From positions 16,430,547 to 16,494,546 of the forward strand of contig CM026556.1 in the NCBI GenBank assembly GCA_015143295.1: a stretch of 64,000 bases of DNA, in the 5' to 3' direction. A program made the position numbers and the translations under genes. Below are positions 1 through 54,000 of this stretch, piece by piece. Each line of letters opens with the position of its first letter. The stretch's first letter is position 1. Under the pieces are notes generated by a model. That model did not search any database. It worked only from the letters and a program-made list of their open reading frames with translations, and was not told where the DNA came from. Source of the stretch: Tetracentron sinense. Its lineage: Eukaryota > Streptophyta > Magnoliopsida > Trochodendrales > Trochodendraceae.

Positions 1-319
1 ACTCGTGTTTTTGCAGAAATTTTAGTAAGGGTATTATGGTCTTTTGGTCGGTTCACTCTTACCTTAAGAGTTTAACCCGAGCCTTTAGGGCTCATTCTCA
101 GCACTTAGAGGATTTGGGGGATTAGAAGAGAGGAGAAAGGGTTTCCTAAGCTAGGGTTTTGCTTTTGGAGAAGAATCAACGGGGTTTTGAGACCCTAGAT
201 CACTTCAAGTTCGGTTTTTCTCCAAGATCACGGCTCAAGCACTCGTGGAGAGCATTCCCCAAGCTAGGGCAGCACCTCACGGTCGTTTTTGGCAGGGGTT
301 TCTTCCTCATTTCTTCAAG

Positions 320-1414
320 GTCGGTACTTCTTACTACCCTCCTAGTTATAGTTCCTCTTTTCCCTTTATTCTTTTGACTTTCTTTCATTTACACATGTGC
401 TATGAGATGGATGGTTGTGAATGGTGAATGGAGATGGAATGGGCGATTGGATGCCAAGGGTTGTGTTATGATGATTAAAATGGGGAGGGCATTGTATCCA
501 TAATAAACACACCTTTATGATGTGAGAAAACTCACCTAGAAAAGCATGATTTAGGTTTAAATGAATAATGAATAATGAACACACCATGTTTGATGAAATG
601 CCAAGGTGAATAAAATGAGTTGTAAATTAGGAAATGCATGCCTAATAAATTATGAATATTGCTAGGGCCTATGATAGTGTGTTTTCTTGCTTTCCCTAAA
701 TGATATGAATATTACATTGCTCAATCATTGATGTTATATGTGTTGTGAAATTACCCAAATGTCATATTTAAATTTAAATGCAAGTATGTACACTGTTTCC
801 ACGAGCACGGCATGCATGACATGATTTATCGAGGTTTTCAAGAACATGGTTAGAGGTGGGACATATCCTACGATATGTTTTACCTCGCTTTTCACAAGAA
901 AACAAGAACCAACATTCCACGAGGGGTCTCCCCTCACTCACAAGTGCATATCATGAAGAAGGGCCTCCCTTCCCTCGCAAGTACATACATATCATGAAGA
1001 AGGGTCTCCCTTCCCTCGCAAGTGCATTGCATAAAGAAGGGTCTCCCTTCCCTCTCAAGGCATCTCTCAAGCGCATCTCACAAGGATATCTCACAAGTGT
1101 ATCTCACAAGTTACATGATCACAAGCAAGCACACATGACATGCATGACAAGACACGACATACAAGAATCAAGCAAGATAGACAAGACGTGTTTTCAAGCA
1201 CGAAAATGGTACTTTAAGTCAAGTCAAGCGCACGGTGTTTTCAAGGTTTTATCGGCTTTCTGCGAAATACAAGCATGATTATAAATTGCTTTACTTCCTT
1301 GTATGATATGAATTGTTTCCTGCTTTATGTATGCTATCCGTATGCTATGACTGTTGGTTAGTGCTTAGTACCCGCTGAGTATTCCATGCTCAGCCGTACT
1401 TCTTATGTCGGCAG
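320..1414 (+). other. Predicted intron inside the G1 LTR
   Basis: The donor AAG/GTCGGTAC and acceptor TCGGCAG/GT bound a 1095-bp interval. Equivalent donors (AAG/GTTAGTAC, AAG/GTAGATAC) and the same acceptor occur at matching places in the S1, S2, S3, S4 and G0 LTRs, which supports a conserved intron. The G1 donor is the weakest of the set. There is no transcript evidence. Confidence 0.45.
944..1063 (+). repeat. Short tandem repeat in the G1 LTR intron
   Basis: About three to four imperfect copies of a 35-45 bp unit built on 'aagaagggtctcccttccctcgcaag'. The same array is in the 3' LTR near 8712-8831 and in the solo copy near 27790-27890. Other LTR families carry unrelated repeats at the same place. 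Confidence 0.75.
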
Positions 1415-1524
1415 GTTCTGAGGGAGCTGCTGCTCCATTTGATGTTTGTGCTCCTGGTCCATGGGTGGAAGAGGAGTACGTCGAGGAGCCTTTGGACGAA
1501 CCTCCCGTAGAGGGTTATCAGTAG
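1405..1524 (+). CDS. Conserved LTR micro-ORF with PWVEEEY core (G1 5' LTR)
   Basis: This is a 39-codon ORF starting MSAGSEG and ending PVEGYQ-stop, acidic, with the core PWVEEEY at residues 19-25. I do not recognise the peptide. The evidence that it is real is comparative: the same core, in the same position after a TCGGCAG/GT acceptor-like site, occurs in five other LTR families here (S1, S2, S3, S4, G0), and the differences in the seven core codons are confined to third positions, with one E to D change. The ATG overlaps the acceptor, so the peptide may start here on unspliced RNA or be the last exon of a spliced message. It lies in the LTR, so it is present at both ends of the element. Function is unknown. 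Confidence 0.5.
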   Translation: MSAGSEGAAAPFDVCAPGPWVEEEYVEEPLDEPPVEGYQ

Positions 1525-1834
1525 GTGGTGTTAGATTCTGAGTGGATTGGCTATGGGCGAGCATGAGTGATTATATCCATGTATTTTGGCAGGCATGTCC
1601 GCACTTTCTTTGTTTGATTTCCTTTGTATTAAACTTGGACCATGTGTATACACATAGAGGTTTGTTTAAACTTCCGCAGTGCTATGTTAGAGTATGTTTC
1701 CGCTGTTTATATCCTCTATTGTATATGCTCTGTGGGTTTTTGCAGGTTGGTTTGTCAAGCAAGTCATGTAAGCCATGATTAGTCGTCCAAAGTTCACTCT
1801 AACTCCTAGGGTGGGTTTTGGGTCGCGACAGAAG

Positions 1835-1848: not shown

Positions 1849-2190
1849 AGGCTTTAGGTCTCTAGGGTCACTTAGAATCTTATACCACGGCTTGACAAGA
1901 GCATATGTTAGGAAACAAGTTAGGAAGGAAGTGAGTCGGGAACGAGTCTGGTTCCAAGTTTAAGACTAAACTTTAGTCTTAGTCTAAAATGGTTGCTTTA
2001 ACCAAGTACGGTCCTAGGTACGCCAGAACACTAAAGTATAAGTATAATGTGATGAATACTCTGATGACTTGATGTGATGTGTATTAGTATTATACAACTA
2101 ATACAAATTGAATTATTGTGAAATGGCATTGAAATAAACTGTGGTTTCAAGTTAGACTCATGTGGTGTTATTATTCTCAGGACTTTAGTC
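1849..2190 (+). other. G1 untranslated leader
   Basis: About 340 bp between the primer site and gag. It is AT-rich and I see no ORF or repeat in it. Confidence 0.7.
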
Positions 2191-3425
2191 ATGAGACGGA
2201 ACACACGGGGTCGTGGACCACATACCAGAGCTTCCTCTTCTTCAGAGGATGAGGATGAGCAGCCGGACCTCTCTCAGGTCTTAGGCTCTATTGCTGAGAC
2301 ACTCGCCATACTGGCGGCTCGGCAGGCTATACCATCATCGGCGGCACCTACTCCACCGCCCGCAGCTCCAGTACATCGTACCGCTGGAGTTGAGGCATTC
2401 AGGAGATTGAGGCCTCCACCCTTCCATGGGAGTGTGGACCCTCTTGCTGCGGAGGCATGGATCCTCCAGATGGAGAAGATCCTTGCGGTCCTCTCGCCTA
2501 CAGAGGAGGATAGAGTAGCATGGGCAGTTTTCATGCTAGAAGGTGAAGCCCACCATTGGTGGTTGTCCGCATTGAGGACGCGAGATTTGACCATGCAGGG
2601 TCAACCTTGACTTGGGAGGAGTTCAAAGATACTTTTTACAAGAAGTATTTTCCGATTGGAGCACGGGAAAAGAAAGAGAGAGAATTCATCAACCTTGAGC
2701 AAGGTTCGATGTCTGTGGCCGCTTCTCAGAGCTATCACGCTTCGCGACACATATGATTGCCACCGAGGCAATGAAGGCGAGGAGGTTTGAGCAAGGACTC
2801 AAGGATGTCATCATGGAGAAAGTATCGGTCTTTAGGCACGCCACTTACGCTGAAGTGGTGGATAAAGCCTTGTTGGTTGAGACCAACTCTGAGGCGGTGT
2901 CCAAGAAGAGGGAATTGACGAGAGGCCAATCCAGTAGTTCAGCACCTCTAGAGAGGCGGGCTCGTACCGGCCCTTATCAGTATGCATGGCCAGTACTACC
3001 GATGAGGCCATCTTATACGCCTCCAGCTCCACGGCAGTGTGTGCCTCAGGCACCGCGACCTCGGGCTCTTCCGGCCCCACGGCCTATTGCACCTCAGACG
3101 ATGAGGTATGCTCCACCTCCGGCCCCTCCGACTTATACACACGAGGTCTGCACTTCATGCGACCGGAGGCACCCGGTAGGAGATTTCCGAAGAGCATCGG
3201 GTGGATGTTTTCATTGTGGTCGCCAGGGCCATATGATCAGGGATTGCCCCAGTCGGCATTTACCAGGCCAGTCTCAGGGGATTAGGCCACTAGCACGCCC
3301 AGCAGGATCATATCAGGAGTCATCTCAGACTACCTGGTCTGCACCTCAGTCTCGCCAGGCGAACCAGGGGCGAGTTTTTGCCTTAACAGAGGGTGATGCA
3401 CTTGCATCTGACGATGTAGTGCAAG
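2191..3425 (+). pseudogene. gag: G1 gag, two frameshifts
   Basis: Gag forms the capsid and nucleocapsid of the virus-like particle. The N-terminal part (2191-2610) opens with MRRNTRGRG, an acidic serine-rich stretch, then the retrotransposon gag fold (RPPPFHGS, AEAWILQMEKI, EGEAHHWW). Reading then passes to another frame (about 2560-2730, motif FYKKYFPIGAREKKEREF) and to a third from about 2730 (ELSRFATHMIATEAMKARRFEQGL). The second break looks like a small deletion upstream of ELSRF. The C-terminal part is proline-rich and holds one zinc knuckle, CFHCGRQGHMIRDC, near 3208-3250. The reading frame at 3425 joins pol exactly if the following intron is removed; unspliced, it ends after GTQL at 3439. 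Confidence 0.88.
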
Positions 3426-3573
3426 GTACGCAGTTGTAGCTTATTTAATTATCCGTAAATTAAACTGTTAAGTATTAATTGATTGTGTACGTACTTGGCA
3501 TGTTATATATGTATATATACCTACATCTATATACTGTTGATGCATGGATTAACTCCGCTAGTTAAAATTTCAG
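3426..3573 (+). other. Predicted spliceosomal intron between gag and protease (G1)
   Basis: This 148-bp AT-rich interval starts GCAAG/GTACGC and ends AAATTTCAG/GAACCC. Removing it joins codon CAA-G to GA-ACC, giving VVQG-TLLVN, the uninterrupted sequence expected at this point in related chromoviruses. It also moves reading from the gag frame (2753-3439) into the pol frame. If kept, it supplies an in-frame TAG at 3437-3439. G0 has the same donor at the same codon and a stop shortly after. Splicing could therefore set the Gag to Gag-Pol ratio, as proposed for Ogre elements. This is inferred from sequence only. Confidence 0.75.
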
Positions 3574-6500: not shown

Positions 6501-6900
6501 AAAGTATCTCCTAGCAAAAGGGATCATGAGATTTGGAAAGCGAGGCAAGCTCAGTCCTCGGTATGTTGGGCCTTTTGAGATTATCACACGAGTTGGTGAG
6601 GTTGCTTACAGGGTAGCTCTCCCACCTCACATGGCCGTAGTTCACAACGTCTTCCATGTGTCTATGCTTCGGAAGTACATTGCGGATCCTTCACATGTCA
6701 TAGACTTGGAACCGTTGGAGATTCGAGAGGACCTCACCTTGATTGAAAAGCCGGTTCAGATTTTGGATCGAAGAGATCAGGTGCTTCGCAACAAGACAAT
6801 CCCTTTGGTTCTTGTGCAATGGCAACACCATGCTCGGGAAGAAGCTACATGGGAGCGTGAAGCCAAAGTCAAAGCAAAGTACCCAGAATTAATTGAATGA
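3574..6900 (+). pseudogene. pol: G1 pol: protease, RT, RNase H, integrase, chromodomain-like tail
   Basis: In order: aspartic protease ([10 protein letters not shown] near 3615), reverse transcriptase ([17 protein letters not shown] near 4230; catalytic FIDDIL near 4565), RNase H ([12 protein letters not shown] near 5000), integrase with an H-H-C-C zinc module (5670-5780) and D,D,E catalytic core (MDFIVGLP, VSDRDPRFTS, HPQTDGKTERVN; 5860-6180), then TIPLVLVQWQHHAREEATWE near 6800, the tail typical of plant chromoviruses. There are two lesions. An in-frame TAG at 5235-5237, where relatives usually have a leucine, lies between RNase H and integrase; the frame stays open afterwards to 6578. A one-base shift near 6520-6530 moves the tail to another frame. 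Apart from these it looks complete. Confidence 0.93.
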
Positions 6901-7000: not shown

Positions 7001-7441
7001 TGTAGAGCCCCGGACCTTTTCACATTTAATGCATGACACTTTCGTTGCCATTTTGCCTTTAAAGAGGTATAATTAATAAATAAGGAAGAAATTGGAAATT
7101 TCGAAATGTCAGAAATGTTCCTTTTCGAAGTACGAACCCAACGCAAGTTGAATCGTCAAAATCGGACGAACGAGTCAAAAGATATGGCCAAAACAGTCTG
7201 GACCTGCAGGTAATCGTAGCTCGGAAGGCACTAAGGACGTAGCTCGGAAGGCACTAAGGACGTAGCTCTGATAACGTGCTCTGACAAGGCACAGACAACG
7301 CATAGACAATGTACTCTGATAACGTATACATTGTGCATCCGTTGTGCAACAGACAACGGGTACGTTGTACAGCAAACAACGTGTACGTTGTACAGCTCAC
7401 GACGGGCACGTTGTATATAAGACAACAGACAACGAGCTCAG

Positions 7442-7770
7442 CACTATGCACAACACAACGGACAACGAGTTCAGCACTATTCACAATGGACAACGTGTTC
7501 AGCACTATTCACAGCACAACGAGTTCAGCACTATTCACAACGGACAACGTGTTCAGCACTATTCACAACGGACAACGTGTTCAGTACTATTCATAGCACA
7601 ACGTGTTCAGCACTATTCACAGCACAACGTGTTTTGGTACTATTCACAGCACAACGTGTTCGGCACTATTCACAGCACAACGTGTTCGGCACTATTCACA
7701 GCACAACGTGTTCGGCACTATTCACAGCACAACGTGTTTGGCACTATTCACAGCTCAACGTGTTCGGCAC
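7442..7770 (+). repeat. 26-bp tandem array in G1 U3
   Basis: About eleven and a half copies of a 26-bp unit with consensus acaacgtgttcggcactatt plus cacagc. The early copies vary (gagttcagc, acaacgga) and the late copies are nearly identical, as expected from local amplification. Several of the ORFs here are only repeats in three frames. The solo relative at 26660-26886 has about eight and a half copies. Confidence 0.92.
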
Positions 7771-9172
7771 TCGTGTTTTTGCAGAAATTTTAGTAAGGGT
7801 ATTATGGTCTTTTGGTCGGTTCACTCTTACCTTAAGAGTTTAACCCGAGCCTTTAGGGCTCATTCTCAGCACTTAGAGGATTTGGGGGATTAGAAGAGAG
7901 GAGAAAGGGTTTCCTAAGCTAGGGTTTTGCTTTTGGAGAAGAATCAACGGGGTTTTGAGACCCTAGATCACTTCAAGTTCAGTTTTTCTCCAAGATCACG
8001 GCTCAAGCACTCGTGGAGAGCGTTCCCCAAGCTAGGGCAGCACCTCACAGTCATTTTTGGAAGGGGTTTCTTCTTCATTTCTTCAAGGTCGGTACTTCTT
8101 ACTACCCTCCTAGTTATAGTTCCTCTTTTCCCTTTATTCTTTTGACTTTCTTTGATTTACACATGTGCTATGAGATGGATGGTTGTGAATGGTGAATGGA
8201 GATGGAATGGGCGATTGGATGCCAAGGGTTGTGTTATGATGATTAAAATGGGGAGGGCATTGTATCCATAATAAACACACCTTTATGATGTGAGAAAACT
8301 CACCTAGAAAAGCATGATTTAGGTTTAAATGAATAATGAATAATGAACACACCATGTTTGATGAAATGCCAAGGTGAATAAAATGAGTTGTAAATTAGGA
8401 AATGCATGCCTAATAAATTATGAATATTGCTAGGGCCTATGATAGTGTGTTTTCTTGCTTTCCCTAAATGATATGAATATTACATTGCTCAATCATTGAT
8501 GTTATATGTGTTGTGAAATTACCCAAATGTCATATTTAAATTTAAATGCAAGTATGTACACTGTTTCCACGAGCACGGCATGCATGACATGATTTATCGA
8601 GGTTTTCAAGAACATGGTTAGAGGTGGGACATATCCTACGATATGTTTTACCTCGCTTTTCACAAGAAAACAAGAACCAACATTCCACGAGGGGTCTCCC
8701 CTCACTCACAAGTGCATATCATGAAGAAGGGCCTCCCTTCCCTCGCAAGTACATACATATCATGAAAAAGGGTCTCCCTTCCCTCGCAAGTGCATTGCAT
8801 AAAGAAGGGTCTCCCTTCCCTCTCAAGGCATCTCTCAAGCGCATCTCACAAGGATATCTCACAAGTGTATCTCACAAGTTACATGATCACAAGCAAGCAC
8901 GCATGACATGCATGACAAGACACGACATACAAGAATCAAGCAAGATAGACAAGACGAGTTTTCAAGCACGAAAATGGTACTTTAAGTCAAGTCAAGCGCA
9001 CGGTGTTTTCATGGTTTTATCGGCTTTCTGCGAAATACAAGCATGATTATAAATTGCTTTACTTCCTTGTATGATATGAATTGTTTCCTGCTTTATGTAT
9101 GCTATCCGTATGCTATGACTGTTGGTTAGTGCTTAGTACCCGCTGAGTATTCCATGCTCAGCCGTACTTCTT

Positions 9173-9292
9173 ATGTCGGCAGGTTCTGAGGGAGCTGCTG
9201 CTCCATTTGATGTTTGTGCTCCTGGTCCATGGGTGGAAGAGGAGTACGTCAAGGAGCCTTTGGACGAACCTCCCGTAGAGGGTTATCAGTAG
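9173..9292 (+). CDS. Conserved LTR micro-ORF (G1 3' LTR)
   Basis: Second copy of the 39-codon PWVEEEY ORF. It differs from the 5' copy by E to K after the core (EEEYVKEP). It would be in the 3' LTR of the transcript. Confidence 0.45.
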   Translation: MSAGSEGAAAPFDVCAPGPWVEEEYVKEPLDEPPVEGYQ

Positions 9293-9598
9293 GTGGTGTT
9301 AGATTCTGAGTGGATTGGCTATGGGCGAGCATGAGTGATTATATCCATGTATTTTGGCAGGCATGTCCGCACTTTCTTTGTTTGATTTCCTTTGTATTAA
9401 ACTTGGACCATGTGTATACACATAGAGGTTTGTTTAGACTTCCACTGTGCTATGTTAGAGTATGTTTCCGCTGTTTATATCCTCTATTGTATATGCTCTG
9501 TGGGTTTTTGCAGGTTGGTTTGTCAAGCAAGTCATGTAAGCCATGATTAGTAGTCCAAAGTTCACTCTAACTCCTAGGGTGGGTTTTGGGTCGCGACA

Positions 9599-9951
9599 TG
9601 TCAACGGTCGGCTCTGATGATTTTGACCCTATCAACGGTCTGCTGAATCAACTCGGGACCCAATATCTTTCTCTCTCCAACTTCATCCCAGTATTGAGGA
9701 CATCTACAACTTCACCTATACAAGGTCTCAAAAGGAGCCATCTAGATGCTCGCCTGATCACTGATATTGTAGGTGAACTAACTAATGACAAGTGATCCTC
9801 CCAACTGCCTTTGAAGTCCAACATGTAAGCTCGGAGCATGTCCTCTATAATCTAGTTCACCCTATCAGTCTGTCCATTTGTCTGAGGATGAAAGGTAGTG
9901 CTAAAGTCGAAATGGGAACCCATAGCACTCTAAAAGCTTTTTCAGAATGTA
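9599..9951 (-). pseudogene. G0 integrase, C-terminal fragment
   Basis: The minus-strand reading continues the integrase core interrupted at 13641: remnants of the catalytic-core end, then MLRAYMLDFKGSWEDH (from 9839), matching MLRACMLDFRGSWEEH of G1, then RVKII near 9620. It has frameshifts and substitutions. G1 inserted at its left end and S2 at its right end (TSD ATGTA at 9947-9951). Confidence 0.85.
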
Positions 9952-10301
9952 TGTAGAACCCCGAATCTTCGTTTCACTAAGTAGTGAATAGTGTGTGTGT
10001 CGCGACCCAAAATACCCCCTAGGAGTTAAGGATACTTTGACTCGTGACCGCCGTATCATACCTCCAGTATGATACATAAGGCACACGTGGAAACCTGTCA
10101 GAGTACCTGAATATACATAGCGGAAACGAAATACAATGCACAGCGGAAAATAAAATACTAAACATAACGGAAGCAAAAAGAATACTCCTATAACTTGGCT
10201 CAAGTAAGAACCAACAAGTATACATGTGTGAGAAACCCAAAAGTGGAGTGGACAAACCCCACACTCTCAAAACAAAATGACACAAGTTCTAAGTCGGTCG
10301 A

Positions 10302-10436
10302 TCAACAGAAATCGAAGTCACGACTTCTATCTAAAGCACCATCGTCATGATAGTAATCCATGGAAGGCTCCGGGTCACGGTACTCTTCCTCGACCCAAGG
10401 TTCTTCGCCACACAAATCGAAAGGAACCCGAGCACC
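10302..10436 (-). CDS. Conserved LTR micro-ORF (S1)
   Basis: Open frame of 44 residues from the Gly codon spanning the acceptor. It starts GARVPFDLC, has the core EPWVEEEY and ends DFDFC-stop. A TGA lies in frame just upstream (TGATCGGCAG), so here the peptide cannot start at the ATG used in G1 and would need an upstream exon. It is closely related to the S2 copy. Confidence 0.4.
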   Translation of the reverse strand, partial: GARVPFDLCGEEPWVEEEYRDPEPSMDYYHDDGALDRSRDFDFC

Positions 10437-11185
10437 TGCCGATCATAACAATATCGACTGAGCATGGAATACTCAGTGTATACAAACTAATAACAATAAA
10501 GCGGTTAGGCATAGAGCATACAAGACATGGAGAATGAAATCCGTAAAATCCTTAAAGCATGGAAACCGTAAAAAACGTATGTGAGATAATATTCGAAACC
10601 AAAACTGTAACCGTGTGAGTCAATCGATAATCATAGCCTTATGAGTTCTTGTGAGTTCATGGAGTTACTTAGAGTCATTATGATCTGTAGAGACATAGAG
10701 CATAGAGCAATAACCTTAGAGCATTTCCATAGAGCATAACCTTAGAGATCTTAGAGCATTTCATTGTGATCCGTGGAGCTTGTGAGACGATCTTAGAGCA
10801 TTATCATAGAGTTTCCTTGTGAGCATGGTATGATCCTTAGAGCTTGTGAAACGATCTTAGAGAAATCATAGAGTTACTTAGAATCATTCATTATTCGTCT
10901 TTTCGTGAAAAACCCTTGTTTGTACTTTGAGAAATCCATGGAAACCATCAGTTTATGCGAGACATGCGAGCATATGCACTTAATAAGAGAAATCATCGTA
11001 TTTAAGCATAGAATCCCTTAGAGGTATTTTATCAAACACTTAGAGTGCATCATAATAGTAACCTTCATCCAAGTATATAATCACACCTTTTCATACATAA
11101 AATCAATACATATAGATAGGGCATGATAAGAAGAATCATAATTAGTAACTAGTAGGATTGCAAGATTGTAGTAGAGTGTATCTAC
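10436..11185 (-). other. Predicted LTR intron (S1)
   Basis: Donor CTAAG/GTAGATAC at 11186/11185 and acceptor ATCGGCAG/GT at 10436/10435, 750 bp. It contains many copies of 'cttagagc' and 'tcatagag' type words (10680-10880). Confidence 0.45.
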
Positions 11186-11390
11186 CTTAGAGAAATCAAT
11201 GAGTTTGACTCCCAATGGCTGGAACAAGCAAGAACAGTGAGTTCTTGGTTGGAAAACACCAAATGGAAAGGAAGAACTTGATCTTCCACAAGCTTGAACG
11301 ATCACCAAGTCCTCTCCTCCTTCTCTTCTTCAAATCCCTCAAAAATAATGCACAAAGGGTTTGTGAAACCCTAAGGCACAAACCCAGCCC

Positions 11391-11399
11391 TTTTATAGG
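11391..11399 (-). promoter_or_regulatory. TATA box of S1 LTR
   Basis: On the minus strand CCTATAAAA, about 55 bp downstream of the palindrome cassette and upstream of a pyrimidine- and AAG-rich leader. Confidence 0.6.
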
Positions 11400-11453
11400 C
11401 AAAGGGTGATGGTTAAAGTCTTAAACACCCTTAATGAAGAAAATCTGCGTATG

Positions 11454-11637
11454 ACCGATCGATCGGTGGTATGGACCGAGCGATCGGTGGCTTACCGGTC
11501 GATCGGTGTTATGACCGAGAGATCGGTCAAAAACACACTCTCTGGAATTTTTCCCCATACAACAAAGTTGACCGTGCGACAGCTATCGAGCGATCGGTAG
11601 TTGACCGATCGATCGCTGACTGGACCGAGCGATCGGT
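11454..11637 (-). promoter_or_regulatory. Palindrome cassette of S1 (ACCGATCGATCGGT type)
   Basis: About eight copies of ACCGATCGATCGGT and variants (ACCGAGCGATCGGT, ACCGGTCGATCGGT) in two clusters, separated by a spacer containing 'gtatggggaaaaattcc' on the element strand. It lies directly upstream of the TATA box. An enhancer role is inferred. Confidence 0.8.
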
Positions 11638-12039
11638 GCTCTGTATATCTGGACTGTTTTGACCATATATTTTGACTCGCTCGTCGGATTTCGACGATTC
11701 AACTTGCGTTGGATCCGTCTTTCGAAAACGAACATTTCTAATGTTTCAGAATTTTCGATTTCTCCCTTATTTATTAATTAGACTACGAAACGGCCAATTA
11801 GCTACGAAGGTGCTATTCATTAAGGATGAAAAAGTCTGGGGTGCTACAGTGTGAATAGTGTTCAAGGTAGTCTTGTAAACTTGTGGGTTTATGCTAATGA
11901 AAATGTTTGGATTTATAGTGTGCATGTGTGGTTAGGTCTATATGGCATAAAGGAGTGTGTTTTAAGCATAAAATGTGTTAGGATTGGATTGGAGAAGGTC
12001 CAAGTAGTAGAAAAGGGTTTTGCAGCAAAATAGGAGAGC

Positions 12040-12224
12040 ACCAATCGCTCGGTGATAACCACAGATCGACTGGTCATCTACCAATCGCTCAGTAGCTGTC
12101 GACTAGTTAACTAATTTGTATGGGAAAAATTACAGAGAGGGTGTTTCCAACCGATCTCTCAGTTGAAACCACCGATCGCTCGGTAAGCCACCGATCGCTC
12201 GGTCTTGACCACCGATCGATCGGT
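12040..12224 (+). promoter_or_regulatory. Palindrome cassette of S2 (ACCGATCGCTCGGT type)
   Basis: About seven copies, in the same two-cluster layout as S1, with a spacer containing 'gtatgggaaaaattac'. It ends about 57 bp before the TATA box. Confidence 0.8.
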
Positions 12225-12280
12225 TGTTCACTGATTTTCTTCATGAAGGGTTTTTGAGTATTTAGCCACCACCCCTTTGC

Positions 12281-12290
12281 CTATAAAAGG
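12281..12290 (+). promoter_or_regulatory. TATA box of S2 LTR
   Basis: CTATAAAAGG, followed by a leader with 'aaggaggaagctagggttt' and, further on, an ATG at 12438 in frame with the predicted second exon. Confidence 0.65.
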
Positions 12291-12492
12291 CTTGGTTCAT
12301 GCCTTAGGGTTTCAAAAACCCTTAGTGCATTATTTTGAGAGGATTTTGAGAGGAAGAAGAAGGAGGAAGCTAGGGTTTGCTAAAAGCTTGAAGAGAAGAT
12401 CAAGATCTTCCCTCGTTCGGCGTTTTTCAGCAAAAACATGAGGTTTCTATGTGTTCCAAGCCGTTGGAATCAAATTCATCGATTTCACCAAG

Positions 12493-13215
12493 GTAGATAC
12501 ATTCTACTACCAACTTGTGATAATAATAGTTTACCACATGATGCTCTACTCATTCTATACTATAAATATTGATTGTTATGGTGTGTGATGGTATTTTTAT
12601 ACTTGGATGTAAACTATTATTATTATGCACTCTATGTGTTTGGTTAAATGCCTCTAAGGGTTTTTGGTGATTAAATGTGTTGTTCTCTCATATTTTGCAT
12701 GTCTCGCATGAACCGGTGTTTTTCCATGGATTTCTCAAAGTTACGAAAAGGGTTTTTGAATAAGTGACTTAAATGATGATTCTAAGAAACTCCATGATAT
12801 CATCTAAGATCGGTTCACAAGCTCTAAGGATCATGTTAAACTCACAAGAACTCCATGATAATGTCTAAGATCTTCTCACAAGCTCTAAGGATCACAAATG
12901 CAATTGCTCTAAGATCTCTATGGTATTGGCTCTATGGTTTTTTTCTTTGGTATTGCTCTATGTCTCTACGGATCATAAATAACTCTATGAACTCTATGAA
13001 CTCCAAGTACTCACAAGGCTATGATTATCGCATGACTCACACGGTTTTGGTTTCGGATTTCATCATAAGTGTTATTTCACGGTTTCCATACTTTGAGATG
13101 TTTTAAGGATTTCATTCTCTATGAATTGCATGCTCTATGCCATTATTGTTTTATTGTTAGTAGTATGTATACACTGAGTATTCCATGCTCAGTTGATATT
13201 TGTTATCATCGACAG
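12493..13215 (+). other. Predicted LTR intron (S2)
   Basis: Donor CACCAAG/GTAGATAC and acceptor ATCGACAG/GT, 723 bp. Joining the ends forms a Gly codon (G + GT) and connects an open exon starting at ATG 12438 (18 codons, MRFLCVPSRWNQIHRFHQ) to the PWVEEEY exon in frame, with a stop at 13347-13349. This is the best single example that the LTR encodes a spliced ORF. It could be chance. Confidence 0.5.
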
Positions 13216-13349
13216 GTGCTTGGGTTCCCTTCGATTTGTGTGGTTTAGAGCCTTGGGTAGAGGAAGAGTATTACGACCCGAAACCTTCTATGGACCACTA
13301 CCAGGATGATGGCCCGCTAGATAGGCGTCATGAATTTGACTTCTGTTGA
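13216..13349 (+). CDS. Conserved LTR micro-exon (S2)
   Basis: Second exon of the predicted spliced ORF: AWVPFDLC, core EPWVEEEYY, then an acidic segment and EFDFC-stop. The ATG found here in G1, S3, S4 and G0 is absent, so translation would depend on the upstream exon. It is closely related to the S1 copy; most differences in the core are synonymous. Confidence 0.45.
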
Positions 13350-13640
13350 CTCTGTTAGTTAGAAGGATATGATATTTTGTTAAGTGAGAGTGGGACTTGT
13401 CCACTCCACATTTTGGATATTTACACATGGGTATATTTTGGTTGGTTTAAACTTGAATTAATAGATAAGAGAAATTATTGTTAGTTGCTTCCACTATGTG
13501 TGTTTAAATCGTTTCCGCTATGTATATCTATGTACTCTGACAAGTTGTTATGCGTGCCTTATGTATCATATGGGATGTATGATACGGTGGTCACGAGTTA
13601 AAGTATCCCTTACTCCTAGGGGGTATTTTGGGTCGTGACA

Positions 13641-16139
13641 ATGTAGAAGTGAATCTTGGATCCCTGTCTGACACAATACTTACTAGCACCCCATGCAACC
13701 AAACCAATTCTTTGATGTACAATACAATAAGCTGGTTCACGTTGAACGTAGCCCGATAAGGCAAGAAATGGGCAGAATTTGTCAAATGATCAACCACTAC
13801 CCAAATCGCATCTGAGTTCTTTACCGTCCTTAGTAATCCAACAATGAAATTTATGGAGATATTCTCCCATTTCCACTCGAGAATCGGAAGGGATTGCAAA
13901 AGACCTACTAGCTTCATATTCTGAACCCTCACCTATTGGCACACCAGGCATCTTGACATATACTCTACGACTTCTCTCTTTATATTCGGCCACCAATAGT
14001 ACCTCTTCAGGTTTTGGTACATCTTTGTACCACCAGGATGCACAGTATACTTGGACCGGTGAGCTTCATCTAAGATCTTGCTCCTCAACTCTGCATCCAT
14101 AGGAATACACAACCTTCCTTTAAATGTGATAGCTCCGTTACCATTCAAAGAGAATTCATCACTCCTTTTGCTAACCGCCTTACCTCTGTAAGAAAGTAGC
14201 TCCGCATCCGAACCCTGCAACTCTTGGATCCGAACTTTGATATAGGGCCTAACTATAAGATTAGCATGACTGGCCCAAATGTGGGAATACTGAAATTGGT
14301 ATCGAGGTTTACCATGACCTTCAACATCTTCCATTCTTGAATCATCATGTGGACTACAAGTCCAAGAGGATTCCTGTTTAGAGCATTTGCCACCACGTTT
14401 GCCTTACCCGGGTGGAACTGGATAGAGCACTCGTAGTCTTTTAAGAATTTCATCAATCAACGCTGCCTTATATTCAACTCCTTTTGGAAAAACAGATAAT
14501 TCAGACTTTTGTGATCCGTGAATACGTCAAATTGTTCCCCATAAATGTATTGCCACCAATCTTTATTGCAAATACCATTACAACCAACTCTAAGTCATGC
14601 GTAGGATAGTTCTTTTCGTGATCCTTCAACTGCCGGGAAGCATAGGCGATGACATTCCCACGCTGCATAAGAACACATCCTAGCTCGATATTCGAGGCAT
14701 CACTGTAGACTACAAAACCACCACTCCCAAATGAAACTGTGAGAACGAGGGCCGTAGTAAGCCTCTTCTTCAATTCTGAAACTTGCTTCGCACTTGTCAT
14801 TACAAGCGAACTTAGTATTTTTCCGCGTTAAGTACGTGAATGGTGCCGCTAAGCTGGAGAATCCCTCTATGAATCTCATATAGTAGCCTACCAAAATGAG
14901 GAAGCTACGTATCTCAGTGACACTCTTGGGTTTCTCCTATTTCATCACTGCCTCTATCTTCGCTGGGTTTACTGAAATACCCTCGGCAGATACCATGTGG
15001 CCAAGGAACGCTACTTTCTCTAACCAAAATTCACACTTACTCAATTTGGTATACAGTTTATGCTCTCGAAGAGTCTCAAGTGTAAGTCGAAGGTCTCGAT
15101 CATGATCCTCCCGTGCCTGGGAATACACTAAGATGTCATCAACAAAGACAATGACACATCTATTGAGACAAGGCCTGAACACCCAGTTCATCAAATCCAT
15201 AAACGTTGTCGGTGCATTCGTTAGACCAAAAGGCATGAATAGAAACTCGTAATGTCTGTACCAAGTCCTAAAGGTTGTCTTAGGAACATTTTTGGCCTTG
15301 ATCTTCAACTGTTGATACCCTGATCGTATATCAATCTAGGAGAAGAACCTTACTCCCTTTAGTTGGTCAAACAAATCGTCTATCCGAGGCAAAGGATAAT
15401 GATTCTTGATCGTAACATTGTTCAACTGCCTATAGCCAATATACATCCTCATCGACCCATCCTTCTTCTTCACGAAGAGTACTAGTGCTCCCCACGATGA
15501 AACACTTGGTCGGATGAAATCAAGTTGCTGCAACTCTTCTATCTGCTCCTTCAACTCCTGAATCTCTATTGGGGCCATACTGTATGGAGCCTTAGAAATT
15601 GGAGCAGTGTCAGGAGCAAGTTCTATAGCAAAATCTATCTCCCTATCGGGAGGCAACCCCGGCAAGTCATCGGGAAATACATCCAAATACTCACTCACAC
15701 CCAGAATGGTTGAGGAGTCTCATGCCTTTGGATTCAAAAGACTTCGAGCTGCTAAACGGATGATATCTTTCCTCCATAGTCCACAGAAGTGGAATGGATT
15801 GACGCCCTCTAGCTTGAAATTCACCACCTTTTCAAAACAAGCTATGTGCTCGTGGTATGCAGCAAGTCAATCCATCCCGAGAATGACATCAAAGTTTAAG
15901 TTTTGGAACTTGAGGATGATCAGATTGATTGGCAACTCATGCTGCCTAACTTGGACTATACAATTCTGGTATCCTTGACCTGTATCAACCGAATTTCCAA
16001 GTGGAGTCGAAATGGTCAATTCTTGATGTAGGTGACTCAGCTCAGAAGAGAAACCTTTGATGAAGCTAGGTGACACAAAGGAATGTGTCAATACTGTGTT
16101 GATCAACACACAAGCTAAACACTCGTTTACTAGTAAAAC
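13641..16139 (-). pseudogene. pol: G0 pol: protease, RT, RNase H, integrase core (decayed)
   Basis: Protease lies at 16109-15867, where the catalytic motif [10 protein letters not shown] of relatives reads LINTVLTHSF, so the active-site Asp is lost. RT spans 15698-14937 ([23 protein letters not shown]). RNase H follows ([12 protein letters not shown] near 14710), then the integrase zinc module (HRSKYTVHPGG; CLVCQ) and core (VSIVSDRDPRFTS at about 13660). Stops and frameshifts separate the open segments. The core is cut at 13641 by S2 and continues at 9951. Confidence 0.9.
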
Positions 16140-16266
16140 GCATGTGCATTATAATTAGCTAAGTTAATAATTTCAAGAATACTCATAGAGTATAGGTAGA
16201 ATGATATACACATATACAATATGCAACCATCAATTCATACTTGAAGAATTTACAATTTTTGCGTAC
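16140..16266 (-). other. Predicted gag-protease intron of G0
   Basis: The donor GCAAG/GTACGC is at exactly the same codon (DDVVQ-G) as in G1, followed in frame by GTQKL-stop if unspliced. The downstream exon resumes at about LLVNECLACVLIN near 16139. The acceptor AG is no longer visible ('cacatgcg'), which fits decay of this old copy. The 3' boundary is approximate. Confidence 0.55.
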
Positions 16267-17517
16267 CTTGCACAACATCATCAAATGCCTATGCATCCCT
16301 TTCAGTCAAGGCAAAGACCCGACCCAGGCTCGCCTTGCGAGGTTACTGTGTGGTTGTGAAGGTCGTGCAGGTCTGGATGCCAAAGCTTGTGAAGACCCTT
16401 GCAGAGCAGTCTGATGAATTAGGGGTCTGCTCCCCTGAGGTTGGACCCGCGACTATCGGTGTGGGTAATCTCTAATCATGTGGCCCTGCTCGTCACAATG
16501 GAAACACCCTCCTGATGCTCTCCGACACTCTCCAGTTGGGTGTCTTCGACCACAATAATCGAACTCGAAAGATGATGAGGATGCAAGCTGCACATATCTA
16601 GTACCCTGAGAAAAAGCGGGGCGAGGTGCTTGCAAAGTAATTAGACAAGGTACTGGTGGTGAAAGAGGAGGCCTTTGTGTCTACGTAAGCCTCAGAGCTG
16701 GATATGGGGAAGTCCTGGCCCTCTTCTCTGGCTGTGTTGAGCCACTGGACTGACCCCTATGCATGACTCTCCCGAAGCCGCTCTCCCTCCTCCTAAGAAA
16801 CTCCTCTGAGTTCGTCTCAGCAATCTTCTCCTTCCCCACGATCTCCCTCCAAGAATCAACCTGGAGTGTAGAGACTCAGTCCTTAATGAAGGCTTTTAGC
16901 CCACTCTCAAACTTCCTGACTCGCATCTTCTCTATTGTGAATAGGTGTTGCGATTCACAACAACTCAACAAACTTGGCCTCATATTCGGCCACACTCATC
17001 TCTCCCTGTACCAGAGATATGAACTCCATCTCCTTCTGCTGTCCAAAAATCTTGGGAAAATACTTACCATAGAAGGCATCAAAGAACTCTCCCCAAGACC
17101 ACGGCTCTCCTGCCCTGATATTGTCTCTCTACCTTAGTGCAGCTCTCCACCAATGATTGGCCTCCCCTTCCATCATGAAGTCAGCCCAGTCTACTCTCTG
17201 CTCATCAGTGCAACGAGGAGCATGGAAAATCTTTTCTAGTTACATAATCCACGCCTCTACAACCATGGGATCTGTAGTCCCATAGAAAGTAGGTGGATGG
17301 AGCCTTCAAAATGCTTCAAGCCCCAAAGTATATTGGGTAGGAGGTGGATGCGCCAATGCAGAGCAATGGCAGGCTGTCTGACAGCTAGCATTGTTATGGT
17401 CTCTACCATAGTATTTAGCAACTGAGATATGTCAGGTTGTTCATCCCCCGATGGAGGGTCTCCTCCATTTCCATTACTCCTAGTCTGGTATCCGTGAACC
17501 CCACCGCCACGTCTCAT
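16267..17517 (-). pseudogene. gag: G0 gag (decayed)
   Basis: It starts MRRGGGVHGYQTRSNGN at 17517, comparable to the start of G1 gag, with an acidic segment and then several frameshifts. The zinc knuckle near 16470-16510 reads CFHCDEQGHMIRDY, with the last cysteine changed to tyrosine. It ends FALTERDA-stop-AFDDVVQ before the intron donor, so there is also a nonsense codon. Confidence 0.82.
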
Positions 17518-17768
17518 GATAAATCCTGAGAAGAGTAGCAGAGCATGAGTCTAACTTGGAACCAACTTTATTTCAATAATAACTTCAAACTCATTCCATA
17601 TTCATAAGATACATAGTAGATTTTCATCAAGGTATACATTGCAATATTATAAGCATACAATATATGGTTCTAGCATAGGATACTAACTTCAGGTGGGTTT
17701 CAGCCGGTTGTGGATTAAGACTAAATAATTAGTCTATACTTGGAATATGACTCATTTCTCATTCTAAT
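17518..17768 (-). other. G0 leader, gag-proximal part
   Basis: Untranslated leader of G0; its other part is 44419-44588. C1 inserted between them with the target duplication CTAAT (17764-17768 and 44419-44423). Confidence 0.8.
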
Positions 17769-19510
17769 TGTTGCCCAGATATGGACCCTAGAGGGGGGGT
17801 GAATAGGGTCAATGGCAAAATAAAATTATTATTCCCTTTTTAAGTGCAGAAAATAAAATCTAAAAGGAATGCAACTAAGCACAAGATAGATAAAGTAATT
17901 TAAGTGCACAAGAAGAAGGAGAAAGAGTAAAGGAGTGCAAACACAGAGTTGTTTTCGAGGTTCGGCACACCCAACCTACTCCCTGTCTCAAGCAACACTA
18001 GCTTGGAGGATTCCACTATAGTCCACGACTGCTCAGACTTCTTAATCTGGTGAAGCCTAAACCCTTTACAACCTCTCTTCTGGTTGAGGTGAACCGTACA
18101 GTACCTAGAGCACAACTCTCTCCAGTTTTACACGAAGCAGCAGCTTCACAGAACACTCAGGTTCTTGGATGATGAAAGTAGATGTTGGATCTTAGATCCG
18201 AAGGATAAACTCCTTTAAGAGTTAGATATGAATGGAATATCAAGCTCTATGAAATCTCTCAAATGGAAGTTTGGATTTTAGCTCAAAGAGAAAAAAAACA
18301 AAGTATCGTTTGCAGATTTGGGATTTTTAAGCTCAAGAGAGTGATTATCAATGTAACAGTGTAGGAGTGAGTGTTATTTTTTGGATCATTCAAAGATCAC
18401 TTATGTTTATAGTGATCTAAAATTTATTACCCTTTGATGATCATTAAATGCAAAATACCCGTTTTAAATATAGTCGTTGGCAAAAAGAACGGTTTTTCAG
18501 AATTTTTCTAAACTATCCAGTCAATTAGAGTAGCCTGCTAATCGGCTGGATGGTTTCCTGATCGGCTAGATCATCAAAACAAGTTTTAAGGAGTTTTGTT
18601 CTATCCAGTCGATTAGAGGAAGGAGTGATCGATTGGATGGACCATTTAATTGACTGGATGGTCATCCTAATCGGCTGGATAGACAAAACAATTCTAGATT
18701 TTTGGTTTATCTGATTTTTAATGCTTTTACTTTAACTTTAATGATTTGCACGAATTCCAAAGTCTTTAATTTTGTTAGTAAAGCATGATTAACAACTCAT
18801 TATGATCTTTAAAAAGATTTAAGATGGATTTACAAAGAGAACCAACATGATCAGCACGTGTAGACAAATTTTGAAAAAATTTGTTCTATCCAGTCGATCA
18901 CAGGGCTTGCCTGATCGACTGGATGGTCTGTTTAATCAGCTGGATGGCCTATCTGATCGACTGGATAGGCTAATTTTATTTGCAGAATCCATTTTCAAAA
19001 TCTTTAAGGTATGATTTGATTCCAAGGTTTTGTACTTAACTTTTATAAGTATAAGTAACATGTTTTAAGGTCCTTAATCATATTTTAATATTTGTTCAAG
19101 GGACCTATGGTCAATCTAAGGTGTTTTGAGCTTTTTCACCAAATCAACCACTTGAGGATTTTTACAAGAAATCCTAGACAGACCATACTAACTACCTAGA
19201 CTAAGACCTTGATGGAGATGAGCTTTGTTCTTCAATGGTCTTCAGCAGCAGTGTCTTCTAGGCAATCTTCCAAAATCCTTTTTGTTTATAGTTGATCATC
19301 TTCTTGAAGCTTCGATTTGGAAATTTCATCATGTCTTGACATGGTCTTTTTATTGAAAGTTCTTGAATTTGCTTGAAGTTCCTTTTCTAATACAAGAATG
19401 CTGTAAAATAAATTGCTCATGGAAGATATTAGTATCCAAGATTCATTTCATTATATACGTCATCATTAAAATTAATTGAGGGACATATAGTTGTAACCTT
19501 AAGGCTAACA
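17769..19510 (-). repeat. C1 3' LTR (1742 bp)
   Basis: In plus orientation it reads TGTTGCCCAGATATGG...AAGGCTAACA. It carries two blocks of family-specific inverted motifs (18513-18682 and 18886-18969). TATA-like CTATAAACA lies on the minus strand near 18404-18414. Confidence 0.93.
18513..18969 (-). promoter_or_regulatory. Inverted-motif cassette of the C1 3' LTR (ATCCAGTCGAT / ATCGGCTGGAT)
   Basis: Repeated ATCCAGTCGATTAG and its inverse CTAATCGRCTGGAT, spaced by 10-60 bp, in two clusters (18513-18682, 18886-18969). They pair as inverted repeats around TCGA. The cluster ends about 100 bp upstream of a TATA-like sequence on the element strand. The same motifs are in the 5' LTR (43400-43590, 43794-43877) and between pol and the env-like ORF. 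Confidence 0.75.
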
Positions 19511-26100: not shown

Positions 26101-26659
26101 TGTAGAGTCCCGGACCTTTTCACATTTAATGCATGACACTTTCGTTGCCATTTTGCCTTTAAAGATGTATAATTAATAAATAAGGAAGAAATTGGAAATT
26201 CCAAAATGTCAGAAATGTTCCTTTTCAAAGTACGAACCCAACGCAAGTTGAATCGTCAAAATCGGACGAACGAGTCAAAAGATATGGCCAAAACAGTCTG
26301 GACCTGCAGGCAATCGATCACCTGGCATATGCACTTGAGGACGAGCTCTGGTGAGGCATTGGGCATATGCACTTGAGGGCGAGCTCTGGAGAGGCACTAA
26401 GGACGTAGCTCGGAAGGCACTAAGGATATAGCTCGGAAGGCACTAAGGACGTAACTCTGATAACGTGCTCTGACAACGTGCTCTGATAAGGCACAGACAA
26501 CGCATAGACAACGTACTCTGATAACGTAGCTCTAGCTCTGATAACATATACGTTGTGCATCCGTTATACAGCAAACAATGTGTACGTTGTACAGCTCACG
26601 ACAGGCACGTTGTACATAAGACAACGGACAACGAGCTCAGCACTATGCACAACACAACG

Positions 26660-28270: not shown

Positions 28271-28390
28271 ATGTCGGTAGGTTCTGAGGGAGCTGCTGCT
28301 CCATTTGATGTTTGTGCTCCTGGTCCATGGGTGGAAGAGGAGTACGTCGAGGAGCCTTTGGAGGAACCTCCCGTAGAGGGTTATCAGTAG
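28271..28390 (+). CDS. Conserved LTR micro-ORF (solo G1-type)
   Basis: A 39-codon ORF, MSVGSEG...PWVEEEYVEEPLEEPP...GYQ. It is intact although the element lost its interior. The acceptor here reads GTCGGTAG/GT. Confidence 0.42.
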   Translation: MSVGSEGAAAPFDVCAPGPWVEEEYVEEPLEEPPVEGYQ

Positions 28391-29113
28391 GTGGTGTTAG
28401 ATTCTGAGTGGATTGGCTGTTGGCGAGCATGAGTGATTATATCCATATATTTTGGCGGGCATGTCCGCACTTTCTTTGTTTTGATTTCTGAAATTTATCC
28501 AGATCAATGATCTCTAAGACCTAGAGTTTTTCAAATAATATGTTTAGAAATCAATGAACAATTCAATCAGACAATCCACACAAATCAAACACAGAAGATT
28601 TTTACGTGGATAACCCTAACTGGAAAAAACCACGGGACCTTGTCCAGCAATAAACTTCACTATGAAAAGATATCAAGTACAAGACAAGACCTTACCAAAA
28701 CAGAAACGACGTTCCTAGGTATAGACTCTTACTCTTGATTTCCACAAACCAGCAGGTTCGATCTCCGCCTTAGCAGCTTCGGTTCCACACCGACCAAATC
28801 TTTTCAAGCGACTTCAAAACCACGATCGATCTCCTTCCACGAAGGCTCCGGATCAAACACCGGACACACACACAAGGTGTAGGGTTGTGAATCAATTTAG
28901 TAAATTTCAAACCCTAGAGGGATCTCATACAGATTTGAGATCACGCAATGCAAGATCAAAGGTTTAAATCTATACTTGCATTCTCTAGGATCAAAGAAAG
29001 AGGAGGGATCAACAAAGATCTAATAAAAGCAATAAGAAAAACCCTAGAAGAGTTTCTCAGACCTCTACTCTTTCAAAAATATCAAAGACACGAATTAGGT
29101 CTCCAAAAAGTTT

Positions 29114-29123
29114 TTTATATAGG
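29114..29123 (-). promoter_or_regulatory. TATA box of the C2 LTR
   Basis: CCTATATAAA on the element strand, just downstream of the palindrome cassette. The same context occurs in the other LTR near 38303-38312. Confidence 0.7.
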
Positions 29124-29166
29124 GTTTAAAAAGGAATCCAGAAAAAGAAAAATTCTTTTTACGGGG

Positions 29167-29351
29167 ACCGATCGATCGGTGCTCACTACTGATCGCTCGG
29201 TTCAAAACGGATCGATCGGTTCTCATGACCGATCGCTCGGGTATAAATCATCTCTCTGGAAAATTACCCCATACAAAAATTTGGTCCAGTCGATAGCCAC
29301 TGATCGCTCGGTAGGCCACCGATCGATCGATCTCAATACCGAGCAATCGGT
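29167..29351 (-). promoter_or_regulatory. Palindrome cassette of the C2 3' LTR (ACCGATCGATCGGT type)
   Basis: About seven palindromes of the same type as in gypsy S1-S3, in two clusters around a spacer that on the element strand reads 'ggctatcgactgg', then 'gtatggggtaattttccaga'. The spacer matches S3 at about 42 of 48 positions by eye. Some motifs here are mutated (CTGATCGCTCGG). Confidence 0.85.
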
Positions 29352-29652
29352 TGAGACAGAATATTTTTTCAAACCATAATTCATTTTATGTTTATTTGAT
29401 TCAACTAGGATCAAATAACTTTGTTAGGTTTAAAACTATCCTCCTAGGTATGTTTAGAGTTATCTAAGCCAAATCCAACCTAGGTAGGGGTCTCTAAGTC
29501 AATTACCTGTCTAGATCCGGAGTAAAAGCATTTTCTGCAATTTCTTCACTTTTCTTGAAGCTTTAGATCTTCTGACAAGTTCAACCAAACTCAACACACA
29601 AGTCCTATATAATAATCACGGAATTTGCCAACAACCTAATTAGGGATTTACA

Positions 29653-29946
29653 ATCTCCCCCTTTGGCAATTCCGGGACAAAACACGACCGACTCATATAC
29701 TAGGTTCAAATTTTCCCAATTGATTCAAAAATGAAAATTTGACCTTTACATGACTCAATAAAGAAAATTACATGACACTTTCAACTTGTCATGTTTCACC
29801 AATCTTAGAACCTGTTTGCCTGCACATGCTCAACCAAAGACCTGTGAAGCATGGGAAATAATATTCAAAGCAATAATCCATAATACCCATATCCATATCA
29901 CAATAATAACAATGAAGTCCATGAAACCATCTTCTCCCCCTTTTTG
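29653..29946 (-). other. C2 polypurine tract and second tract
   Basis: CCAAAGGGGGAGAT on the element strand (29653-29666) abuts the 3' LTR. A second tract, AAAAAGGGGGAGAAG (29932-29946), lies between the 3' ORF and the LTR. Confidence 0.78.
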
Positions 29947-30188
29947 ACTCGAAATGCCAAAGGTGGAATATAAACAATAGAATTAAGGTAAAAGCAGGAG
30001 ATAACATAAACTCAGAGTAATATTGCAAACATGCAGAAGTATCCATGTCAATAACATCCATATAAGGTTTGTACTATATACAACCAAGACAAAATACAGC
30101 AAAAGTCACAAAATAAAACAAGGTCCATAGTAACCTCCTAAATAAAAACATGAAACTTAAGGAGTATCCTAGTTCAACAGTCTGACTG

Positions 30189-37573: not shown

Positions 37574-37634
37574 GGATAATACAGGATCACACTTAAGGGA
37601 TTAGCCTTATCAGTGAACTTGCTCTGATACCAAT

Positions 37635-38850: not shown

Positions 38851-39056
38851 ATTTCTTTGTATTAAACTTGGACCATGTGTATATACTTAGAGGTTGTTAG
38901 ACTTCCGCTGTGTTTTATAGTTATGTTTCCGCTGTCATCCTCTATTGTATATGCTCTGTGGGTTTTTGTAGGTTGGTTTGTCAAGAAAGTCATGTAAGCC
39001 ATGATTAGTCGTCCAAAGTTCACTCTAACTCCTAGGGTGGGTTTTGGGTCGCGACA

Positions 39057-41786: not shown

Positions 41787-41917
41787 GTACTGAGGGAGCC
41801 CTCGACCCGGAGCCTTGGGTCGAGGAAGAATATATAGAGGAGAGAGATTCGTCTATCCCACTGCAGTCTCAGGCGGACCGAGACCTTGACGTGTGGCCGT
41901 ACCTCGACTACTGTTGA
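41777..41917 (+). CDS. Conserved LTR micro-ORF (S3)
   Basis: It is 46 codons long: MSAGTEGALDPEPWVEEEY, then an acidic/polar segment and VWPYLDYC-stop. Both the PWVEEEY core and the WPYLxY end recur in G0, and with changes in S4. This longer form may be ancestral. Confidence 0.48.
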   Translation: MSAGTEGALDPEPWVEEEYIEERDSSIPLQSQADRDLDVWPYLDYC

Positions 41918-44588: not shown

Positions 44589-44893
44589 TGTCGTGACCCA
44601 AAATACCACCTAAGAGTTAGAAATACTTTGGCTCATGATGTGCAATATCCGATACCAACCCATCTTATAAAATATTCAAGGCAATATATAGCGGAAACAT
44701 AAAGTAATGCGGAAGCGTAAATCAAAGTGTGGAAGCTTTATACATACTCAGTATTCCAAGTTTGCACCATACATAAACCAAAATAAGAATGGACATGCCC
44801 AATCATCAAAATACAGATATAGTCTCTCTCTCTCACCCACTCTTAATAGTATCCAAGATAAGGCCACCTATCCAGGTGCTTATCCTCTTCTGG

Positions 44894-44977
44894 CTAAGCC
44901 TTTGCTGGCTTCTCCTCACTATAGTCCTCCTCGACCCACGGACTGGGATCACAAATGTTGAACCGACCTGCCGACAT
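44894..44977 (-). CDS. Conserved LTR micro-ORF (G0)
   Basis: 27 codons: MSAGRFNICDPSPWVEEDY, then SEEKPAKA-stop. Beyond the TAG the same frame continues to RWPYLGYY-stop, matching the end of the S3 peptide, so the TAG looks secondary. It has one E to D change in the core. Confidence 0.45.
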   Translation of the reverse strand: MSAGRFNICDPSPWVEEDYSEEKPAKA

Positions 44978-53859: not shown

Positions 53860-54000
53860 TCAACAGTAGTTGAAGTACGGCCACACGTCGAGGTCTCGGT
53901 CCACTTGAGACTGCAGGGGGATAAACGGCTCTCTCTCCTCTATGTACTCCTCCTCGACCTAAGGCTCCGGGTTGAGGGCTCCCTCAGTACCTGCCGACAT
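53860..54000 (-). pseudogene. LTR micro-ORF of S4 (Trp codon mutated to stop)
   Basis: MSAGTEGALNPEP, then TAG in place of the core Trp, then VEEEYIEER and WPYFNYC-stop. It is the same 46-codon form as S3, broken by one substitution (TGG to TAG). Confidence 0.5.

Follow-up and report, generated by a model that had tools for sequence, protein, structure and literature searches.

Long terminal repeats (LTRs) are generally regarded as DNA with regulatory functions and no coding role. Among retroviral open reading frames (ORFs), HIV nef and MMTV sag reach into the 3′ LTR, so that LTR sequence is coding in its 3′ copy; among plant elements, BARE is a copia element and Ogre a non-chromovirus Tat element. 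Splicing of LTR retrotransposons has been described in several cases, for which we rely here and below on the available portions of the published accounts: the plant elements EVADE, with its shGAG (PMC8892269), and BARE1 (PMC3735527) yield gag-only subgenomic RNA by splicing, and removal of an intron between the gag-side and pol-side frames of Ogre permits polyprotein production (PMC6317226). In Cer1, a Ty3/gypsy element of Caenorhabditis elegans, the spliced CERV mRNA links exons in the gag frame with a 3′ exon (PMC10309623). Here we describe a short coding exon inside the LTRs of G1 and related elements in a 64,000-nucleotide stretch of the Tetracentron sinense genome (contig CM026556.1, positions 16,430,547 to 16,494,546; hereafter the window). 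A selected coding exon departs from the usual view of LTRs, and comparison of copies indicates that thousands of plant LTRs carry such a short conserved exon, which would be spliced to Gag as an alternative acidic tail.

The first-pass annotation of the window had proposed an LTR-encoded acidic micro-exon with the core PWVEEEY. The frame is present in all eight stretches where it was reported (two in G1, one in a G1-type solo LTR, and one each in the LTRs S1, S2, S3, S4, and G0; Table 1), and the core is intact in seven of them, as PWVEEEY in six and as PWVEEDY in G0, the one glutamate-to-aspartate change that had been noted; the single stop ascribed to the S4 frame was likewise found. Although the frames were right, all starts but that of S2 were not: in both G1 copies, the solo G1-type LTR, S3, S4, and G0 they lay within intron sequence, 10 nt short of the exon (ATGTCGGCAG/GT; a slash marks a splice junction), and in S1 one base short, the true exon beginning just after the acceptor AG. 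Flanking DNA, said to be much more diverged, is so in general, but not in the hairpin and acceptor directly upstream, which are conserved about as well.

The frames occupy one and the same place in the long LTRs, and a largely common layout surrounds each, consisting of a CTGAG-TATTCCAT-GCTCAG hairpin, an acceptor-like ...TCGGCAG/GT, the PWVEEEY frame, and a stop, which in several families is followed by a GGTGGGCCTGTCCACC-like palindrome. The fuller families give the exon consensus PFDICxPxPWVEEEYxEE...DLDxWPYxDY, ending at the stop. The hairpin TGAGTATTCCATGCTCAGCC, ~43–63 nt upstream of the core, matches exactly the eight window LTRs at up to three mismatches (0 expected from shuffles), a partial control in that the pattern holds no core letters but was read from the same eight LTRs. 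Among 37 genome representatives, an automated search chose that hairpin as best in 15 and another hairpin in the rest. Genome-wide, the core pattern CCNTGGGTNGARGARGARTAY has 19,976 exact matches (9,978 + 9,998) and its reversed control 0, and CCSTGGGTNGARGARGAYTAY, an aspartate variant that allows C or G within the proline codon, occurs 52 times. Because genome copies were retrieved by the core pattern, core conservation in them is no evidence; three of 36 hairpin sites in the retrieved loci, many of these sites being the retrieval targets themselves, have PWVEEEC, PLIEEEY, or a divergent PWIEAAQ in place of the exact core.

For comparative analysis, 78 loci less nine duplicates plus the eight window copies gave 77 copies, and clustering on flanks reduced these to 38 representatives. 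Exactly one match to the acceptor pattern was found in 66 of the 77 copies and none in 11. The distance from acceptor to core is 2 mod 3 in 61 of the 66 single-acceptor copies and differs in the other five, and the in-phase distances of 20, 23, 26, 29, 35, and 44 nt represent six exon lengths. Judged from its sequence, the LTR feature is a phase-1, stop-terminated coding exon of very roughly 25–50 codons. The proposal of an exon thus stands, whereas that of a stand-alone micro-exon gives way to a terminal, stop-containing exon of very roughly 75–150 nt.

The coding character of the exon was assessed by codon position in frame-blind, plain-DNA alignments of the 38 flank-clustered LTRs, with the core excluded. 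Differences at positions 1, 2, and 3 were.285,.295, and.462 downstream of the core and.288,.320, and.479 upstream, compared with flat values in the flanks of the same alignments (.26,.26,.24 and.30,.30,.31); the 17 representatives without an ATG alone gave.289,.312, and.496. In the same alignments, columns shared their phase at.71 downstream and.64 upstream of the core versus.34–.35 in flanks, partly because the exon lies close to the anchor. By the Nei–Gojobori method, with synonymous sites saturated, the ratio of nonsynonymous to synonymous differences per site (pN/pS) among 24 representatives was.575 in frame, not near 1, as against 1.04 and.94 in the shifted frames; these sequences had been picked because their frame was open and were aligned at the protein level, a procedure that biases toward the frame, and the codon-position test is the cleaner one. 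Over 25 codons, 69 of the 77 copies keep this frame open versus 23 and 13 for the other two frames, 7 of the 25 codons being fixed by the search in the 69 retrieved copies. Neither of the two outcomes named in the first-pass annotation as refuting its proposal was therefore obtained. Selection on an LTR-encoded peptide, as first proposed, is therefore supported by position-specific divergence, pN/pS, and the fixed splice phase. The exon is genuine, codes for protein, and lies directly behind a splice acceptor; the about twenty thousand exact core matches mark this selected exon, presumably mostly in LTRs.

A donor of matching phase lies at the end of gag. CAAG/GTACG (GTG CAA G/GT ACG, phase 1) is identical in five of six elements at this position, and the sixth, L081, has CGGG/GTATAT. 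It is the only listed GT common to all three elements aligned from the leader through gag to the start of pol, and it ranks first among the 95 GTs that could be aligned between two elements from the gag end through pol; at the pol end, none of 37 GTs scores above 2 in both elements. Reading through the gag–pol intron of G1 ends Gag within four codons (TAG at 3437–3439), and removing its 148 nt continues Gag into protease, the gag of this particular copy being already broken further upstream. The exact spliced gag–pol junction, GTGCARGGNACN..., occurs without the intron at 46 genomic places, some of which are clearly sister copies, so that there were fewer than 46 events; intact donors number 5,574. 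All four such loci that were read (L092–L095, two families) are continuous Gag-Pol. They look like elements copied from spliced RNA, and for some of the 46 an older intron-less form may have survived. These genomic relics show that the donor CAAG/GTACGC was spliced in nature, to pol. Of 12 proteins found by a Gag search, 10 were examined; the citrus protein P0007 reads ...NDVVSGTLSLF without the intron, and the end of the ENA protein P0005, ...DDVVQGTSSQ, is what an intron still in place would give. Among 22 donors listed, an exact PWVEEEY exon lies on the same strand 1.86–2.01 kb upstream of 14, where 0.04 would be expected; for 12 there is an exon 4–9.5 kb downstream, and for 10 on both sides; the co-occurrence extends to an ATG-less family (22355746/22353755). 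From this placement, donor and exon share the same elements.

Based on these features, a simple scheme would have the gag-end donor choose among acceptors on one pre-mRNA, with three products. Retention of the intron would give Gag, with a stop a few codons on; removal of the short intron through the nearby pol acceptor would give Gag-Pol; and use of the 3′ LTR acceptor, skipping all of pol, would add an acidic tail of very roughly 25–50 residues to Gag. The first two products are supported. On balance we lean toward the third as well, a Gag partner being preferred because of the matching phase, conservation, and the absence of any stronger candidate. More tentatively, the tailed Gag could be a regulatory or export form like CERV, for which the introns within the genomic RNA would create the need. 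That this third Gag-derived protein exports or protects intron-containing genomic RNA, as a plant counterpart of CERV or Rev encoded by the LTR, is a doubtful extension built on analogy.

Unlikely, although it retains appreciable weight, is the alternative that the exon is coding but joined to some other upstream exon, by way of a GT in mid-gag or RNase H, an unexamined donor, or a host exon. Only the requirement for a phase-1 donor is established, and several observations weigh against the coding exon as a tail of Gag. The junction of the gag donor with the LTR exon has 0 copies in the genome search, which is weak evidence because such RNA would be without the polypurine tract and hardly copied. 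Further phase-1 GTs exist: a mid-gag CAAG/GT in an LEQG motif is also phase 1 in four of six elements, reading GTAATA in L079 and L083 and a poor GTTCGA in G1 and L082, and scores higher in L079 (5.5), whereas L081 and the second window element have GGA there. In RNase H, CCGG/GTAA at window 5305, within an HPGK motif and by our count in phase 1, occurs in both compared elements with scores of 2.2 and 3.5. An X-padded protein search with one real tail found no longer protein carrying it. As to the coding evidence itself, the representatives are related, so that pair counts lack independence, and we make no claim of significance; the phase agreement of aligned columns is helped by the position of the exon beside the anchor; and interior gaps divisible by three amount to.34–.36 in the exon versus.20 in three flank stretches, a moderate excess that beats the flanks but is not the pattern of a tightly held frame. 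On the other side, no other donor is shared as well as that at the gag end or has proof of splicing, the mid-gag GT is missing in two of six elements, and LTR exon 1 is generally without a usable start. We take the LEQG and HPGK motifs to be conserved in such elements, and these protein motifs could explain the conservation of both GTs. Relics of an ...AAG/LTR-exon junction, sought with two exon types, gave eight genome matches, and the four read are all TCGGAAG variants inside the intron.

LTR exon 1 ends at a leader donor, AAG/GTNNGTA. Of 40 long LTR copies, 19 to 26 have this donor, the number varying with the pattern used. The leader resembles a 5′ untranslated region, presumably for gag, since the gag ATG closely follows an acceptor (8–11 nt 3′ of it in five of the five elements read there; L080, taken as a 5′ leader, has no gag behind its LTR end and was excluded). 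From the first TAGGG-type motif to the donor it holds 8 ATGs in 3,207 nt, and 14 of 19 copies have no ATG there at all. Of the 26 copies with a candidate donor, 9 have a stop in the phase-1 frame of the leader no more than 12 codons from the donor. ATG-poor and with these stops, LTR exon 1 was rejected as a general coding partner. The intron between leader donor and PWVEEEY exon is very rich in ATG, with 1,057 in 21,770 nt (19 copies; L039–L078), where our own arithmetic from composition predicts ~1.6–1.8 per 100 nt, and could bar translation of unspliced RNA.

The same intron bears on an improbable alternative, a stand-alone small peptide that starts at ATGTCGGCAG on unspliced or internally started LTR RNA. 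An in-frame ATG does occur within 20 codons upstream in 21 of the 38 representatives, and the protein database holds three short ORFs of this kind. The 17 representatives with no in-frame ATG nearby, however, show an equally strong coding signal, S1 has an in-frame TGA, and the ATGs of the upstream intron would hinder scanning. The ATGTCGGCAG ATG, absent in many families, is not a general start. Since ATG-less families keep the coding signal and S1 has its TGA, a start must in general be brought in by splicing to an upstream exon with a phase-1 donor, as in the proposed joining to Gag.

Very improbable is a non-coding RNA element conserved for its own sake, for example a purine-rich splicing enhancer beside the acceptor: GARGARGAR is enhancer-like and a hairpin precedes the acceptor, but the third-position excess is seen across the exon to either side of the purine run. 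Least probable is a similarity that arose by recent descent or conversion among LTR families in the absence of selection, as suggested by the apparent origin of all copies in one element lineage; it is contradicted, barring alignment artefacts, by a codon-position bias in the exon that the flanks lack and by an in-frame pN/pS well below that of the shifted frames.

The exon-bearing LTRs appear to belong to one chromodomain Ty3/gypsy lineage. Pfam matches along G1 comprise RVP_2, RVT_1, RT_RNaseH, Integrase_H2C2, SH3_Tf2-1, and Chromo, the last barely over the cut-off (25.4 vs 25.1), and the order of protease, reverse transcriptase, RNase H, and integrase with a C-terminal chromodomain is that of plant chromoviruses. 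G1 differs from Ogre-type elements in having a chromodomain and an intron before protease, and from Ty1/copia elements in that reverse transcriptase precedes integrase. The lineage is presumably Tekay/Del-like, a clade name given by resemblance. S1, S3, and S4 are solo LTRs, because the same 5-nt sequence flanks each on both sides.

Table 1. Window coordinates of the LTR exon copies, splice sites, and landmarks of G1
Feature	Position	Strand	Remarks
PWVEEEY coding exon, G1 3′ LTR	9183..9292	+	Acceptor TCGGCAG/GT before 9183; stop TAG 9290-9292
PWVEEEY exon, G1 5′ LTR	1415..1524	+	Translation not expected in this copy
PWVEEEY exon, G1-type LTR, termed solo in the first-pass annotation	28281..28390	+	
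Exon in LTR S1	10302..10435	-	CACAC on both flanks; in-frame TGA just 5′ of acceptor, no ATG
Exon in LTR S2	13216..13349	+	
Exon in LTR S3	41787..41917	+	TTTAT on both flanks
Exon in LTR S4	53860..53990	-	CTTTG on both flanks; W codon reads TAG
Exon in LTR G0	44843..44967	-	PWVEEDY; early TAG 44896-44894, frame then runs on to ...WPYLGYY and stop
Gag–pol intron, phase 1	3426..3573	+	Donor GTGCAAG/GTACGC, acceptor AAATTTCAG/GAACCC
Same gag-end donor, second, degenerate window element	16265..16266	-	
Gag acceptor TTCTCAG/GACTTTAGTC and gag ATG (2191-2193)	2181..2193	+	Same arrangement in L079, L081, L082, L085
LTR exon-1 donor TTCTTCAAG/GTCGGTAC	8088..8089 (3′ LTR); 320-321 (5′ LTR, by offset)	+	Ends ATG-poor leader stretch
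G1 5′ LTR, cut by window start	1..1830	+	Primer binding site-like TGGTATCCGAGC at 1835-1846
G1 3′ LTR (TGTAGAGCCCC ... GGGTCGCGACA)	7001..9598	+	7769-9598 99.1% identical to 1-1830; GGGGGGGAGGA just before 7001
Integrase C-terminal part with chromodomain	6502..6894	+	Pfam PF24626, PF00385; pol stop 6895-6897

Other features of these LTRs and of the window were recorded. The first ~200 bp of the LTR (7001–7216, 39839–40047, 11652–11848 on the minus strand, and 26101–26316) are 79–97% identical while the remaining LTR diverges, and no continuous frame was seen there in the window copies. A further acceptor-like site lies near the LTR 3′ end, at window 1730–1746 in G1 (GGGTTTTTGCAG/GTTGG) and ~300 nt 3′ of the core in L042–L073, where it reads TTGTG.ATT..CAG/GATGG; some families have a GTA-type donor ~13 nt on, and the pair is a possible micro-exon. 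S1 (minus) and S2 (plus), 76% identical, stand back to back in opposite orientation at window 9638–16341, between minus-strand chromovirus pieces (pol 16341–13646 and an integrase piece 9948–9638). A copia element occupies 28527–38855, with minus-strand ORFs between 32253 and 37573 and flanking direct repeats (28527–29657 and 37715–38855) that are 98% identical; a 1.8 kb repeat pair of unassigned kind (17754–19510 and 42642–44418) is 93% identical.

Relatives of the tail in the protein database are three short ORFs (47, 48, and 87 aa) from ENA contigs, because of which the exon probably occurs beyond this genome too. An IMG/VR match was rejected as a relative, since the contig is phage-like and has its PWVEEDY by chance. 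A Pfam search with two tails gave no family. A literature search, with subscription papers largely outside its scope, found no paper with PWVEEEY, WVEEEY, or PWVEEDY and, by title or abstract start, no description of the LTR exon.

If tailed Gag is indeed made, splicing would account for the ratio of Gag to Gag-Pol in a chromovirus, and a plant Ty3 element would have a candidate regulatory protein. More generally, cassettes of an acceptor plus a coding exon would be scattered through the genome, open to capture by host genes.

To our knowledge, the retroviral frames that reach into the LTR, HIV nef and MMTV sag, are continuous ORFs unrelated to the LTR exon. Tekay elements share with G1 an extra coding capacity, but the 5′ aORF described for them is about 400 aa long, 5′ of gag-pol, and outside the LTR, as far as the available account goes (PMC11728184). 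The plant precedents for splicing, in the portions of the accounts at hand, include no LTR exon: none is given for the copia element EVADE (PMC8892269) or for BARE1 (PMC3735527), and the Ogre intron follows protease, with no alternative LTR exon (PMC6317226). The nearest functional parallel, by analogy, is Cer1 CERV, a Gag-derived regulatory protein made from a spliced mRNA that skips pol (PMC10309623). Here the corresponding product is suggested by compatible phases and a shared donor, with 0 genomic copies of the gag–LTR exon junction, and the G1-lineage exon differs from that of the available Cer1 account in being short, acidic, and located inside the LTR.
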